From: Minisyncoccota bacterium
Lineage (GTDB): Bacteria; Patescibacteriota; Minisyncoccia; Phycocordibacterales; UBA918
Direction: 5' to 3'
Length of the DNA stretch: 33,887 nt
Assembly: GCA_021129655.1 (NCBI GenBank)
Contig: JAJOLC010000017.1
Span: 1-33,887, forward strand
A program made the translations under genes and the position numbers. Each line of letters opens with the position of its first letter. Position 1 is the first letter of the stretch. Below the pieces are notes generated by a model that saw nothing but the letters and a program-made list of their open reading frames with translations, ran no database searches and was not told the origin of the DNA. Positions 20,393 to 33,887 of the stretch are shown here, piece by piece.

Positions 20393-21499
20393 ATGAATAA
20401 ATTAGGACTTTTCCTGATATTTCTATTTTCGGCTGTTCCATCATTTACCCAGGCAGCAACTATTGGCTACGCATCCACAACCCTGACTCTGAGTATTTGT
20501 GGAAACATGCTAGTGGATGATGGTGAGGAATGTGATGTGCCAGGCGAAACTGGTGTTTACAGTCAGACTATCATTGGCAGACAGTGTTCAGCTCAGTGTC
20601 TTTTTGGTCCATATTGTGGTGACGGTATTTTACAAACCATTCACACCGAAGAATGCGATGATGGTAATAACGACAACGGAGATTTTTGCTCAGCTACTTG
20701 CAAGATTGAGCCGGCTGGTTCTGGGGGCGGCGGTTCGTCCGGTGGAGGTTCTAGTGGCAGCGGCGGCAGCACGGTAGATTTAGGGGACACAATCATTAAC
20801 ATTATTGGACGCGGCTATCCTTCTCAAACTATTAATTTTTTGCTCGATACAGTCTCGGTTGGTTCAGTTCGCTCTGATAGTTCTGGAGACTTTGAGTTCG
20901 CGACTGATGCATCACCAGGAACGGCCACTCTAGGTATCTGGGCTAATGATAGCGATAGTAATCGCTCTATTACTCTAAACAGTACCTTTGATGTCACTCA
21001 AGGTGCAGTTACTAACCTTAACGGCATACTGTTGCCGCCAACTTTGACTGTGCTGAGTCAGAATATCAACCCTGGAGATCAAATTACAATTTCGGGTGAA
21101 GGTGTTCCGAACACCACGTTGGAATTACATATTGACGACAGTGTCATTATCGAAGAAACTACTACCGATGAGGAAGGTAAGTGGTCTCTCATTTTTGATA
21201 CTAGCAAGGTGACCGTGGCTGAACATATAATAAGAGCCAGAACAGTTATTGGTAGTCCACCGCTTACCACCGAGAGTACCTTTAGTACATCCGTACAACT
21301 CTTTATTGGAGTTGAGGGTCAGGCATCTTTGTCTTCTGACTTGAATCGTGACGGCTTTGTTAATCTTATCGATTTCTCTATTTTGATTTTCTGGTGGCAA
21401 ACAGATGGTGGTACCTCTGACCCACCTGCCGACATTAACTTGAATGGTCGAGTGAGTCTGGAAGATTTTTCCATTTTGCTATTTAATTGGACAGGTTAG
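20393..21499 (+). CDS. Secreted protein with DUF4215-like Cys-rich repeats, Gly/Ser linker, Ig-like region and C-terminal type I dockerin
   Basis: CGNMLVDDGEECD... and CGDGILQTIHTEECDDGNNDNGDFCSATCKIE; linker GSGGGGSSGGGSSGSGGS; duplicated dockerin loops SDLNRDGFVNLIDFSILIFWW and ADINLNGRVSLEDFSILLFNW. Starts 2 nt after the upstream stop. Confidence 0.9.
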   Translation: MNKLGLFLIFLFSAVPSFTQAATIGYASTTLTLSICGNMLVDDGEECDVPGETGVYSQTIIGRQCSAQCLFGPYCGDGILQTIHTEECDDGNNDNGDFCSATCKIEPAGSGGGGSSGGGSSGSGGSTVDLGDTIINIIGRGYPSQTINFLLDTVSVGSVRSDSSGDFEFATDASPGTATLGIWANDSDSNRSITLNSTFDVTQGAVTNLNGILLPPTLTVLSQNINPGDQITISGEGVPNTTLELHIDDSVIIEETTTDEEGKWSLIFDTSKVTVAEHIIRARTVIGSPPLTTESTFSTSVQLFIGVEGQASLSSDLNRDGFVNLIDFSILIFWWQTDGGTSDPPADINLNGRVSLEDFSILLFNWTG

Positions 21500-21597: not shown

Positions 21598-21633
21598 CGC
21601 GGACATTTTCCTTTCCAAAGGAAAATGTCCGCG
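21598..21633. repeat. 36-bp near-perfect palindrome / hairpin
   Basis: CGCGGACATTTTCCTTT-CC-AAAGGAAAATGTCCGCG, 17-nt perfect arms. Confidence 0.95.
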
Positions 21634-21686: not shown

Positions 21687-21709
21687 GTCCCGAGGTCGGA
21701 CCTCGGGAC
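21687..21709. repeat. Perfect GC-rich hairpin
   Basis: GTCCCGAGGT-CGG-ACCTCGGGAC, 10-bp arms. Confidence 0.95.
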
Positions 21710-21783: not shown

Positions 21784-22063
21784 AAAAGATATTCACAGCT
21801 TTTCCACAGAAATTTGACCCTATTTTAATTTTAGTTTTGTAAGCACCGTACAATAGGTAGGTACTTGCAAAGGAGGTAATCAATTAGCATTACTGCACGC
21901 GCATTTTTTATGTACGTGGACACTTCAGCCGGTGTTACTTTGCTCGTATACTTACGGTGCAATTTTGAGTCCGGAGTGGAGACCGTGGCTCAGTACGAGA
22001 CGTATGTCTTGTCTGTATCCTCAAATATAAATACAGGCCGTGAGGTAAACAACGTAGAGTACT

Positions 22064-23218
22064 ATGATTAGAACGTCCAACTCGTTCTCAGTACTCCGAG
22101 CAACCGCAGCAATTGCCGGTCTAGCTGTCCTATTGTGGTCACTAGGTTTGTCATCATTTCACTTTGTGAATGCTGCAAATGTCACAACTATTAGCGATAC
22201 TCTGTCGGACTCAGCTCCAGCAGTTGTATCAAACCACACCATCACGTTCACTACTCCAACTGGAGTGGCGGCAGGTGAAGATATCGTTATTACTTTCCCC
22301 GCTGGATTTACAGGAATCGGCAGTCTAGTAGCAGCCGACCTTGACCTCCTTAATGGAGCTACTGACGAAGATCTGATTGATGGTGCTGCCTCAGCCGCTA
22401 ACTGGAATGTTACTGCTGCTGGTCAGGTAATCACTATTACTAGTGGAACTGACACTATACCGGGAGCAACAACGGTTACCATTGAAATTGGTACCAATGC
22501 AACATTCCCAGGAGCAGGTACTAACCAAATCACTAATCCAGCAACAGGTTCATATCAAGTTGAGATAACTGTTGGTTCTGGTAATGATACTGGTGCGATG
22601 AATTTAGCTATTGTAGACAACGTTACAGTTAATGCTTCTGTCGATACCCTTTTCACTTTTACAGTGACTGGAGTAGCATCAGCGCAGACTGTGAACGGTA
22701 CCACCACTGGTGGAGCTACAACAGCTACGAACATTCCGTTTGGTGCGCTTGATGCAAACACAGCTAGTACAGCTGCCCAAGACTTAAGTGTTACAACAAA
22801 TGCAGCTAATGGATTTGTCGTAACAGTTACAGCCAACGGACAGCTAAACTCAACTACTGGTGCAGATATCGATGGTTTCCGAAATGGAAACTTCGACACA
22901 ACATCTGTGCAGTGGGAAAGCCCTGCTAGCACACTAGGATCAGAAGAGACGTATGGTCACTGGGGTATTACTTCAGATGATGCAACGCTTACTGCTGGTG
23001 CTGCTACTGACTTGTAAGATGTTGGGGGTGATGGACAGAACTATGTGTCCGCCTCAACAACAGCAGTAGAAGTCTTCCGACACGACGCTGTCGCAGACGG
23101 TACTGTGCAAGGTGAAGGTTTTGCTCGTGTAGGTTACACAGTTGAAATTGGCTCTTTGCAAGAAGGAGCCGAAGATTACACCGCTATACTGACATATATA
23201 GCAACGCCAGTGTTCTAA
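22064..23218 (+). pseudogene. Secreted surface protein gene interrupted by one in-frame TAA (23015-23017); intact part 22064-23017
   Basis: Signal peptide, then NVTTISDTLSDSAPAVVSNHTITFTTPTGVAAGEDIVITFPAGF... Same frame continues after the TAA as DVGGDGQNYVSASTTAVEVFRHDAVADGTVQGEGFARVGYTVEIGSLQEGAEDYTAILTYIATPVF to TAA 23216-23218, followed by a terminator. Type call is provisional: could be nonsense mutation, readthrough or sequence error. Confidence 0.75.
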
Positions 23219-23252
23219 AGAATATTGGCTCCAAGCTTGGAGTTAACAACGC

Positions 23253-23288
23253 AAAAAACCCTATCTCCCACCACGAGACGGGTTTTTT
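23253..23288 (+). terminator. Rho-independent terminator
   Basis: AAAAAACCC-ta-TCTC-ccaccac-GAGA-c-GGGTTTTTT, just after the extended end (23218) of the interrupted gene. Confidence 0.8.
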
Positions 23289-23323
23289 GAATGAGAAAAG
23301 GAGCCAAAGGCGACTATTTCGAA

Positions 23324-23361
23324 TTTAGGCAGACGCTTAGCATATTTCGACCCCGAAGGGA
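23324..23361. repeat. 38-nt direct repeat, copy 1
   Basis: tttaggcagacgcttagcatatttcgaccccgaaggga, identical to 23411-23448. Confidence 0.97.
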
Positions 23362-23410
23362 GAAATAGGCTGAAGCGGGCTGCAAGAAACTCCACATAAC
23401 CACGAAATCT

Positions 23411-23448
23411 TTTAGGCAGACGCTTAGCATATTTCGACCCCGAAGGGA
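23411..23448. repeat. 38-nt direct repeat, copy 2
   Basis: Identical to 23324-23361. An 11-nt inverted partial copy (gtctgcctaaa) lies at 23587-23597. Confidence 0.97.
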
Positions 23449-23477
23449 TGAAAAGCAAACTTCTTTGCTTTTCATCC
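23446..23477. repeat. Perfect 14-bp hairpin
   Basis: GGATGAAAAGCAAA-CTTC-TTTGCTTTTCATCC, overlapping the end of repeat copy 2. Confidence 0.93.
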
Positions 23478-23690
23478 GGTTCTGGCACTAGCTAGAAGTT
23501 TCCGATATTCATGAGGAAATAGGTGGGACCCAACGTTAAATATCTCACTCTGTGCAGCAGAATTTTGTCTTTAGAAAATATGTAGTGTCTGCCTAAAGTT
23601 CCCTCTATCCACCAAGTCAAGAAGCTCTAGACAGTCACCACTTTAGTAGTGCTCACCGTGTGTACAGAACGTTTTTTGTACTTTCAATAT

Positions 23691-27269: not shown

Positions 27270-28016
27270 ATGAACCAGTTACTTCATTCGATTAAATTAT
27301 TCTTTAAATTCCGAAATCGGGGCGGTACGGTTCGTTATATGTTTTCAGCCGTGCTTTCATTTGCAGTCTTGCTTGGTGCCGCTGTTATCACATCCAACGA
27401 TTCTTCGTATATCAGGCTGCAGTCGTCAGCTGCAACGATTGAGCAAGGAAAACCCTTTTATGTTGATGTTTTCGCCTATGCTCATGTTCCTGTCAATGCT
27501 GTTGATATCACTATTAATTTTGATCAAGAAGCTGTGTCGGTAACAGGGGTTGATACAGGCCAGTCTGTGCTAACTATCTGGACAGAGGAACCGATAATAG
27601 AATCAAAGAAGGTAATCCTGCGAGGAGGCACTTTCCGTAAGGGATTTGTTACTGAACACAAGATCGCTACAATTAAACTAAAGGCAAATAAAACTGGAAA
27701 TAGTTCAGTTAGTGCTTCCGACGTAATTCTTTTGGCAGGTGATGGTGCTGGTACACCCGTGACAGTGACAGAATCTGTAGATAATTACGTTAATTTATAT
27801 GTTTATGACCAAAATTCTGAACCCGGTAGTATCGGAGTGAATGTTTCAGTTAGCATCGTTACTGACATAAACCGTGACGGCAAAGTGAGCCTTCAAGATA
27901 TTAGTATATTCATGTCAGCCTGGGGTACTAAAAGTCAGATCTTTGATTTTAATAATGACGGCAAGATGACATTTAAAGATTTCTCGATTATCTTATCTGA
28001 TTTCTTTACTAGGTGA
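27270..28016 (+). CDS. Secreted or anchored protein with both a cohesin-like domain and a C-terminal dockerin
   Basis: Cohesin-like YIRLQSSAATIEQGKPFYVDVFAYAHVPVNAVDITINFDQEAVSVTGVDTGQSVLTIWTEEPII...; dockerin loops TDINRDGKVSLQDISIFMSAWG and FDFNNDGKMTFKDFSIILSDFF. Confidence 0.88.
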   Translation: MNQLLHSIKLFFKFRNRGGTVRYMFSAVLSFAVLLGAAVITSNDSSYIRLQSSAATIEQGKPFYVDVFAYAHVPVNAVDITINFDQEAVSVTGVDTGQSVLTIWTEEPIIESKKVILRGGTFRKGFVTEHKIATIKLKANKTGNSSVSASDVILLAGDGAGTPVTVTESVDNYVNLYVYDQNSEPGSIGVNVSVSIVTDINRDGKVSLQDISIFMSAWGTKSQIFDFNNDGKMTFKDFSIILSDFFTR

Positions 28017-30058: not shown

Positions 30059-33000
30059 GTGCTTACTCATCATGAAAAATTCAAGCATATACTAACAACG
30101 TGGCGACTAAGCTTTGGTCAATTTGTGAACACCTTCCCTCGAAAGACTAAGAAAACCCTCACCGTATTGGCTGTACTTTCACTAGTATTTACTGACATAT
30201 TCACCGTCCTGACCCAACCATTCTCTTTTTTGGATGATTTTACTGGTACTGAAACCGCTAGAGCTGCCACTGGTGATTTTGCGACTTTTTCTGAAAACGG
30301 TGGAGGGGAGTCTGTTAATTCTAACGGAACTCCTTTTGATGTTACTTGGGATAATACTGTAGACAGTAATTCAAATATTACTTTACAAGCTAATACGTCT
30401 GACATTGATTTAGCTGACGGAGGTAAATATTTAGTTCTTTACAACACCTGGGTGCACGAAGGTGGTTCCGGCGGTGCTAACAGGCGAGGAGTAGATTCAT
30501 ACCTAACTCTGGCTGGCACACAGTTACCCTACGGTCGCAGTGCGGGATACATTAGAGACAATGAGTCTTTAACCACAGCTTGGATTAATGGCTCGACTAT
30601 TATTGATGCCACTGCTGGTGATGATTTACAATTGCATGTAAAAAGAAACGATGGTAATTCTACAGCCGGTACAGAAATGGCTGCGGGAGAAAATGGTGTT
30701 TCTATTATTAAATTACCAGACGGGAATGATTACTTGCGAGCCATTCTGGCTGCTACCAGCAGCAGCATAAATGGTAATACTACCTTTACTGATGTGCAGT
30801 GGGATACAGTTGATGAAATCGACACAGATTCTTTTGCTTTAACTCCTACTTCGGCAAACATCACGTTAAAGGGGGCTGACGGTGACTATTTTATTGTTAA
30901 TGCAAACGTGGGTTTGTATGTAACAGCTGGTGGGTCTACTCGGCAGAATTACGAAATGATCTTGACTTTAGATGGTGCAGAAATACCTGGAACTGCTGTC
31001 ACTTCGTATTTACGTGGTACCAATGATACATGGGAAGGTCAGCTAGTTTACACTGGCTTAATTGCAAAAGACGCTGCCGGTGATCAGACTCTTAATGTTG
31101 AGGTGCGCCGGGAATCAAGTGCTGGTGCCACGACTGTAGTAATGGGAAACAAGACATCTCTCAGTATAATGTCCGTCCCAACTACGGCTGAAGTGGTGCG
31201 TTTGTCAGATGGCTCGGGCACTCAAACTTTAGCTGATACTAGCAAAGTTCTGACTTTTGACACCGAGGATGAAATAAATTCCAATAAATTTTCTCATTCT
31301 TTAGTTTCAAATACCGACCGAATTGAAATTGATAGTGCGGATGACTATCTCTTTTTTGCCACTGCCTACACCGAGACTACTGTCAACAGTAACGACCGTG
31401 AACCTTTTGATATTACTTGGAATCTCACTGGGTCAGATGTTAGTCGTGGATCGTTCGCTTCTTTTAATCGGGACAACAACGCCTTCACGGCTGGAGCATC
31501 TGGTGCCTTATTGTTAAGTGGTTTGACTGCCAGTGACTATGTTGCCATGTCACACGTGAACGCTAGTACTGACACTGTTGACGATGCGACATTTGCTGCC
31601 GACAGAGTCGCTGTGCAAGGTATTGCTTTGAATGATAATTTCTATGGACTCGATACGGTGGTTAGTGTGAGTGGTGCTCATGTGACAGCCGCTGATATAT
31701 CAACTACAGGTTTCTACACCGGTGGACAGTTCGCAATCGTTGAGAGTAGTGCTTCTAGAAATGTTACGGGTTTAACAATTGATGAATCCGGAACAGTAGA
31801 TGGCTCTACAGGTATTTCAAATGTAGAACTCTATTATGATTTAGATACTTCCGCTCCTTATGATTGTGCTAGTGAATCTTATGGTGGAGCTGAAAGCCAG
31901 TATGGCTCTACAGATAGTAATGGCTTCTCAGGTGCTGATGGAAGCTCCAGTTTCACTGATTCAGTTGTAATTTCTCCTACTCAAGCTTTGTGTGTTTATC
32001 CAGTTATGGACATCGTCGGTGGCGCACTAGATGGAGATACTCTTATTGTATCTATTGATACTCCGCTAACAGATATTGTAGTAACGGGTGGGGCGTCCAT
32101 CGGACCGTCTGATAGTTTACTAATAAGTGGTTCGACAGTGTTAAGAAATGCAGAGTTGACACAGATTCACTACCAATGGTTGAACGACGACGGGGTTGAA
32201 GGGTCGGCTACTTCTATCGAAGGTGGCGAGGACTTACCTGCAATCGGTTTTGCCAATGGCACAATCAGGCGGTTGCGAACACAAATTTCAGCTGAAGGTT
32301 CAACATCTTCAGTGTCCACCGCTTTCCGTTTAGAGTATGGGCAAAAGGTAACAACCTGTTCTGCTATTGCTGTCTGGACAGATGTAGGAGCAGTAGGAGG
32401 TGATTGGGATATGGCCAATTCTGCCTTTATTACTGATGGTAATGATTCATCGGACTTAACTGTAGCTAATGGCGGTACAACAAATGAAAACACCACTCAC
32501 TTGCCCACTAATGGTGCACTCCGTGATACTAATTCTCAAACTGGATCGTTAATTTTTGCAACCACTAATTTTCTTGAACTAGAGTATGCTTTTCAGCCAA
32601 CTGCCACAGCACCTCAAGGTAATACCTACTGCTTCAGACTTTCGGACGCCGGAACGGCTCTTCGTAATTATGATATTTATCCTGAAGGTACTATCTCGGC
32701 TGATGTTGATGTTAGTGCCACTAGTACTCACGTTGCTAATTTAGATGTTGGTAGTAATGCTCAGTATTTGGGCGGAGGTTTTGTTATTGAACGGCCTGGT
32801 ACTGTTAGAGCAGTAACGTCGGTGACACTAACTGAGGTCGGCACAGTTGATGCTTCCACAGATTTGGCCGATATAGAATTATTCTATGATTTGGATACAA
32901 CTGCTCCTTATGACTGTACCGGTGAATCGTATGGTGGTGGAGAAACTCAGTTTGGCAGTACAGACACCGACGGCTTTTCTACTGCCAACGGCACCTCAAC

Positions 33001-33887
33001 CTTTACTGGCTCCGAAACCATCTCGAGCACCCGGAGTATGTGTTTATATGTCGTGCTAGATGTGAGCGCTACTGCTGTAGATGGAGAAACAATTGAGGTG
33101 CAAATAGCTGACCCTTCTACGGAGGTGGTTGTTACATCGTCAAGTGTGGGACCAAGTACCGCTGTTTCACCAACTTCAAACACAACAATAGCCGGACCAG
33201 TACTAACACAAACTCACTATCACTGGAGAAATGATGACGGTAATGAAGCTGGGGCTACATCAGCGAGTGGAGATGCTGAAGATACCGGTCTCTTGAATAT
33301 TGCGAAGGAGACTACCTATAGACTGAGGTTGCAAGTATCTAATGAAGGCTCCGTTTCTAGCCCGGCTACCACTTACAGACTAGAGTATGGAACTAAACTT
33401 ACTACCTGTGGGGGTGTTGTCTCGTGGACAGATGTTGGAGCTGTCGGCGGTGCTTGGGACATGTCGCTAAGCTCTAATATTGCTGACGGTAATACAACTG
33501 ATATTGCTTTGGCGAGCTTGGGGGCCATGACTGATGAGAACACTAACTTCATTGGCACTGGAGCTCTGCGAGAAACCACTTCAGATTCTGGCTCAATAAC
33601 TCTAACTAGTACTCAATTTACTGAGTTGGAATATTCCATTGAAGCTACGGTGGATTCTGGATACGATACAGATTATTGTTTTCGGGTATCTGATGCAGGT
33701 GCAGACTTAAATTCGTATACAACTTATGCCGAGCTAACTACTATGGAAAAACAAGATTACTTCATCCAGCGTGGTAATGAAACTGTGTCTGGAACAGGAA
33801 TTACCTTGACGGCCGGTGTCGACTACACAGCACCAGCCTCAACCTCAACAGCCTTTGTAAGGATTACAAATTCACAACTTACTGGTG
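30059..33887 (+). CDS. Large secreted repetitive surface protein, 3'-truncated by the window edge (absent from the ORF track)
   Basis: Hand translation from GTG 30059 (alternative GTG 30125, MNTFPRKTKKTLTVLAVLSLVFTDIFTVL...) finds no in-frame stop to 33887. Coding-like throughout, including LEYG...TELEYSIEAT...YCFRVSDAG. Confidence 0.92.
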   Translation, partial: MLTHHEKFKHILTTWRLSFGQFVNTFPRKTKKTLTVLAVLSLVFTDIFTVLTQPFSFLDDFTGTETARAATGDFATFSENGGGESVNSNGTPFDVTWDNTVDSNSNITLQANTSDIDLADGGKYLVLYNTWVHEGGSGGANRRGVDSYLTLAGTQLPYGRSAGYIRDNESLTTAWINGSTIIDATAGDDLQLHVKRNDGNSTAGTEMAAGENGVSIIKLPDGNDYLRAILAATSSSINGNTTFTDVQWDTVDEIDTDSFALTPTSANITLKGADGDYFIVNANVGLYVTAGGSTRQNYEMILTLDGAEIPGTAVTSYLRGTNDTWEGQLVYTGLIAKDAAGDQTLNVEVRRESSAGATTVVMGNKTSLSIMSVPTTAEVVRLSDGSGTQTLADTSKVLTFDTEDEINSNKFSHSLVSNTDRIEIDSADDYLFFATAYTETTVNSNDREPFDITWNLTGSDVSRGSFASFNRDNNAFTAGASGALLLSGLTASDYVAMSHVNASTDTVDDATFAADRVAVQGIALNDNFYGLDTVVSVSGAHVTAADISTTGFYTGGQFAIVESSASRNVTGLTIDESGTVDGSTGISNVELYYDLDTSAPYDCASESYGGAESQYGSTDSNGFSGADGSSSFTDSVVISPTQALCVYPVMDIVGGALDGDTLIVSIDTPLTDIVVTGGASIGPSDSLLISGSTVLRNAELTQIHYQWLNDDGVEGSATSIEGGEDLPAIGFANGTIRRLRTQISAEGSTSSVSTAFRLEYGQKVTTCSAIAVWTDVGAVGGDWDMANSAFITDGNDSSDLTVANGGTTNENTTHLPTNGALRDTNSQTGSLIFATTNFLELEYAFQPTATAPQGNTYCFRLSDAGTALRNYDIYPEGTISADVDVSATSTHVANLDVGSNAQYLGGGFVIERPGTVRAVTSVTLTEVGTVDASTDLADIELFYDLDTTAPYDCTGESYGGGETQFGSTDTDGFSTANGTSTFTGSETISSTRSMCLYVVLDVSATAVDGETIEVQIADPSTEVVVTSSSVGPSTAVSPTSNTTIAGPVLTQTHYHWRNDDGNEAGATSASGDAEDTGLLNIAKETTYRLRLQVSNEGSVSSPATTYRLEYGTKLTTCGGVVSWTDVGAVGGAWDMSLSSNIADGNTTDIALASLGAMTDENTNFIGTGALRETTSDSGSITLTSTQFTELEYSIEATVDSGYDTDYCFRVSDAGADLNSYTTYAELTTMEKQDYFIQRGNETVSGTGITLTAGVDYTAPASTSTAFVRITNSQLTG
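31755..33740 (+). repeat. Two tandem ~1.05-kb coding repeats in the 30059 protein
   Basis: GTVDGSTGISNVELYYDLDTSAPYDCASESYGGAESQYGSTDSNGF (from about 31795) and GTVDASTDLADIELFYDLDTTAPYDCTGESYGGGETQFGSTDTDGF (from about 32845), with parallel downstream sequence. Confidence 0.9.

Follow-up and report, generated by a model that had tools for sequence, protein, structure and literature searches.

The in-frame TAA at 23015-23017 of this locus raises the question of whether it ends a surface protein gene or breaks a longer one and, if a gene is broken, by what kind of event. The analysed window, that is the whole stretch of 33,887 nucleotides, is contig C4 of a metagenome-type genome of 722 kb (97% complete, 64 contigs), and the gene and its UTR elements lie on its forward strand. 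The frame opened by the ATG at 22064 runs to a final TAA at 23216-23218, and the TAA at 23015-23017 is its sole internal stop. A sequence-only reading of this DNA had quoted a tail of 66 codons (23018-23215) following that stop in the same frame, and the tail has been read again, with an exactly identical result up to the final stop. An open frame of this length is expected with a chance of about 2% in random sequence of the local composition, and its bare length is weak support for coding. The tail is nevertheless more than a chance open frame, because its codon use is coding-like in the frame of the gene only and because it is homologous to the C-termini of real proteins.

This homology has been established through the comparison with Kaiserbacteria, Paceibacterota and ‘Elulimicrobium’ genomes, where the related contigs recovered represent other species and none is conspecific. 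The best orthologues (54-70% identity, about 370-390 aa) are uninterrupted through the stop position, and some 50 homologues in related genomes cross it without a stop and share the end ...LTYVATPVF*. The same genome encodes an intact paralogue of 362 aa (contig C53) with the same C-terminal end, whose last 58 residues align to the tail with 59% identity (E 1.5e-17); toward its relatives in general the tail shows 59-72% identity. The gene thus extends, by whole-length homology to intact orthologues and to the paralogue, from 22064 to 23218 and comprises 384 codons plus the internal stop. The earlier claims that the TAA truncates a longer gene and that the segment behind it is coding are therefore borne out, as homologues continue past the stop column and the coding sequence behind it is conserved. 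Among the 31 aligned proteins this column holds Phe in 27 (TTT or TTC), Tyr in two and Val in one, the stop occurring in the window only, and it sits in a loop of variable length. The sense codons one base away from TAA, listed by the sequence-only reading as possible sources, form a generic set; the homologues have Tyr, one step from TAA, or the prevailing Phe, two steps away.

Strong family matches occur at 56 places in 99 related genomes, part of them cut by contig ends, and interrupted among them are only the window gene and, in a single further genome, G039, two genes. The lesions of these two (L092 and L024) are a TGA in place of a conserved Trp, accompanied by an apparent frameshift, and a TAG at residue 110 of the aligned stretch. 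The gene order around the locus is kept in relatives, where the window's other genes have uninterrupted alignments over most of their length. The locus is best read as belonging to a Patescibacteria (Kaiserbacteria-like) family whose members are exported surface proteins of about 384 aa with two beta-sandwich domains.

The architecture of the family has been modelled with AlphaFold2 on the intact orthologue L009 (pLDDT 84.8), in which two beta sandwiches follow an N-terminal helix that would suit a signal or membrane anchor. Four strands of this model lie past the stop column (residues 326-328, 335-340, 350-362 and 372-382), and the 66 codons behind the TAA make up the latter half of the C-terminal sandwich. 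In the model of the truncated window protein the first domain is confident, while the second reaches a pLDDT of only about 50-70 and has lost most of its strands. The truncated product, without four strands of its C-terminal domain, would most likely be non-functional. A Pfam search assigned no family to the window protein.

Other elements were noted in the surroundings of the gene. Two type I dockerin proteins (20393-21499 and 27270-28016) belong to the same surface-protein cluster. A giant surface protein (30059-33887) is cut by the window end and probably continues on contig C29 (L105, G000:C29), whose open frame of 588 aa closes with a C-terminal domain of the same kind. The intergenic stretch preceding the gene holds perfect inverted repeats at 21598-21633 (17-nt arms) and 21687-21709 (11-nt arms). 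Downstream, the intergenic gap measures 490 nt in the window versus 106-264 nt in 12 of 13 orthologues and 680 nt in one; a possible insertion of 274 bp at 23324-23597 has inverted TTTAGGCAGAC flanks and an internal 45-nt direct repeat. This paired repeat was considered as a multicopy element and rejected, there being two copies only in the whole genome.

The selective regime of the tail bears on the age of the lesion. Against the nearest relatives pN is about 0.2 and pS 0.5-0.8, the body of the gene lies in the same regime, and the terminal branch of the window tail shows no overall elevation; the tail is largely under purifying selection. A slight loss of constraint is suggested at a finer scale. 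Of the 25 tail columns on which the other 15 orthologues all agree, the window breaks four, compared to one of 60 in its body (p 0.025), and these four breaks stand against three in all the other tails together (p 7e-4). In a leave-one-out profile the tail-minus-body score of the window is the lowest of 16, by a slight margin. Two of the four changes are adjacent (AV for GP) and common to the same-genome paralogue; gene conversion of the tail from this paralogue was rejected, since the underlying codons differ. The excess, resting on four substitutions, is a hint of mild relaxation after a real and recent nonsense change. Because frame, UTR signals and neighbouring genes have stayed intact and tail constraint is only slightly lost, we infer that such a change would be recent compared with the divergence from the nearest species sampled.

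The untranslated regions carry elements whose conservation, at the 3' end, far exceeds that of the protein. A terminator, placed by the sequence-only reading downstream of the tail, is present at 23252-23289 as a hairpin with the conserved loop TATCTCCCACCACGAG, recognized by orthologue conservation and stem covariation; the loop shared in the orthologue group reads CUCCCACCACGAG. It is preceded at 23220-23246 by a segment, likewise conserved among orthologues, that contains a palindrome (CTCCAAGCTTGGAG). The hairpin with the exact apical 15-mer ATCTCCCACCACGAG is found in 15 of 16 close orthologues; in the sixteenth, L021, CCCACCACG is retained on a different stem. The outer stem covaries, with 94% of cells paired and 21 two-sided changes, a level reached by none of 500 shuffles. 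A search of 146 related genomes for exact copies of the 15-mer placed 27 of 30 distinct copies 23-112 nt past the stop of a family gene; this set was chosen by exact match and is invariant by construction, the unbiased figure being the 15 of 16 orthologues. In the window the 15-mer lies 44 nt after the stop at 23218, against mostly 38-60 nt in orthologues, which again identifies 23218 as the true end of the gene. Paralogues outside the orthologue group have ordinary terminators without the 3' element. In 387 sampled genomes of the class, a model of this element searched with strict filters was clear in two genomes of the genus only, with three weak matches elsewhere.

At the 5' end, orthologue comparison and an arm-swap test identified a conserved hairpin at 21966-21992 with the invariant loop GTGGAGAC (loop shared in the orthologue group: GGAGUGGAGACC), and a conserved ACAACGTAGAG stands directly before the start codon (22049-22059). 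The arms of the hairpin vary in sequence between species with complementarity kept, and none of 300 arm swaps was as stable. The 5' motif accompanies 21 of 23 testable genes that have the 3' element and none of 26 that lack it; the window retains both elements intact. Neither element matched Rfam at the gathering score, nor did the 3' element at a lax threshold, and a literature search for Pam pili or for UTR motifs of the CPR returned nothing relevant. The two conserved, covarying UTR hairpins of this orthologue group appear to be undescribed so far. Their role might be protection of the mRNA ends, release of a 3'-derived small RNA or provision of a protein-binding site. Pairing between the 5' and 3' loops (about -10 to -15 kcal/mol) is unsupported, as 12% of window-pair shuffles equal it, and CsrA, considered as a binder of the GGA-containing loop, was not found in the genome. 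It is conceivable, though doubtful, that the transcript of this orthologue group acts as a functional RNA platform bracketed by the two hairpins, which would stay under selection even in this genome with its broken frame; its 3' end could, for example, give rise to a small regulatory RNA, or both ends could be bound by a dedicated RNA-binding protein.

Whether the stop is passed during translation has been considered in several forms. Readthrough of the TAA, whether programmed or driven by a suppressor, would yield a short and a full-length protein; it is very improbable. In a regulated form it had been offered as an option by the sequence-only reading. Purifying selection on most of the tail would agree with it, as would the G directly after the TAA, since in E. 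coli a G after the stop lowers termination accuracy (PMC11126739), but the same source gives TAA as the least read-through of the E. coli stops. A hairpin beginning 3 nt past the stop (z -2.4 to -3.1) also speaks in its favour, but it is not specific within the gene: other segments of the gene reach equal stability and most relatives lack it. Further evidence against readthrough is that the stop at this column is unique to the window among the homologues, that the other interrupted close members have different stops elsewhere, that four invariant columns are broken in the tail, and that ARAGORN called none of the 29 tRNA loci of the genome with a UUA anticodon. A tRNA gene at L140:916-1012 (G000:C18) has a long anticodon-loop insert, probably an intron; it was not called by ARAGORN and its loop is without TTA. 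An alternative code with a sense TAA was rejected on the grounds that no UAA-reading tRNA was found and two class-I release factors are present; TAA also terminates ordinary genes of the window. A frameshift bypass was dismissed too: the tail is read in frame 0, both remaining forward frames are broken by stops, and a shift therefore cannot produce it.

The remaining explanations concern the reality and the spread of the base change. The gene may be intact in the organism, with the TAA stemming from a base-calling error or from strain mixing in the metagenome assembly, in accordance with the metagenome-type genome in 64 contigs and with the functional appearance of the rest of the gene, the UTRs and the neighbours; a single wrong base would give a nearly identical picture. 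Such an error would not account for the slightly raised number of changes at tail columns that are otherwise invariant, and the other genes of the window show no interruption, which makes this explanation unlikely, though the next in rank. Less likely still is a segregating polymorphism or on/off allele, with TAA in one part of the population and a sense codon in the other. The brokenness of other family members, including the two in G039 at different positions, and the intact UTRs, which suggest a recently functional gene, are in keeping with it, whereas inspection of the sequence at the stop revealed no repeat tract or invertible element that would allow reversible switching.

The preferred explanation, held with moderate confidence and assuming a true base, is that the TAA is a fairly recent nonsense allele and the gene an ordinary broken one; consensus error, strain polymorphism and the unlikely programmed readthrough follow in this order. 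The homology of the tail, the absence of the stop in relatives and the truncation of the domain in the model are established directly, and the consensus base at the TAA is presumably true. A nonsense codon would have been gained where Phe or Tyr normally stands; in the C-terminal domain this position falls within a variable loop. Because TAA is an ordinary stop here, translation would end at 23015-23017 and leave a product short of four strands of that domain. The transcript may still be used despite the stop, given the intact UTR elements. Accepting the nonsense allele, the gene model is corrected to 384 codons rather than 317, and the surface protein is flagged as probably defective in this strain. 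The RNA elements may be more interesting than the stop and deserve a separate study; if the hairpins are true regulators, it becomes possible to test directly how ultra-small bacteria control a surface protein post-transcriptionally.

The comparison has also exposed a Patescibacteria surface-protein family weakly similar to the pilins of Pam pili. The NCBIfam model NF058581 (CPR_Pam_pilin_C, the C-terminal domain of the pilin subunit of the Pam pilus system) weakly matches 22 of 30 aligned members at E up to 0.1 (best 3e-8) and is aligned end to end by the C-terminal domain of the C29 protein, while the truncated window protein itself gives no match. CPR origin and the C-terminal position of such a domain are common to both sides. 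The C-terminal domain of the family thus appears distantly similar to NF058581; membership is not claimed because scores of 16 bits for L009 and 18-22 bits for the C29 protein fall far under the curated cut-off of 55 bits. The best Foldseek matches of the intact orthologue model are the MSCRAMM-type tandem Ig-like adhesins ClfA, ClfB, FnBPA and SdrE, which also consist of two consecutive beta sandwiches, although a TM-score of about 0.2-0.3, an rmsd of about 20 and 10% identity indicate a general fold resemblance only. Young nonsense pseudogenes among bacterial surface-protein genes likewise combine one premature in-frame stop with an otherwise intact gene and intact relatives. In contrast to typical nonsense pseudogenes, the window gene shows very little decay and has retained its UTR signals.
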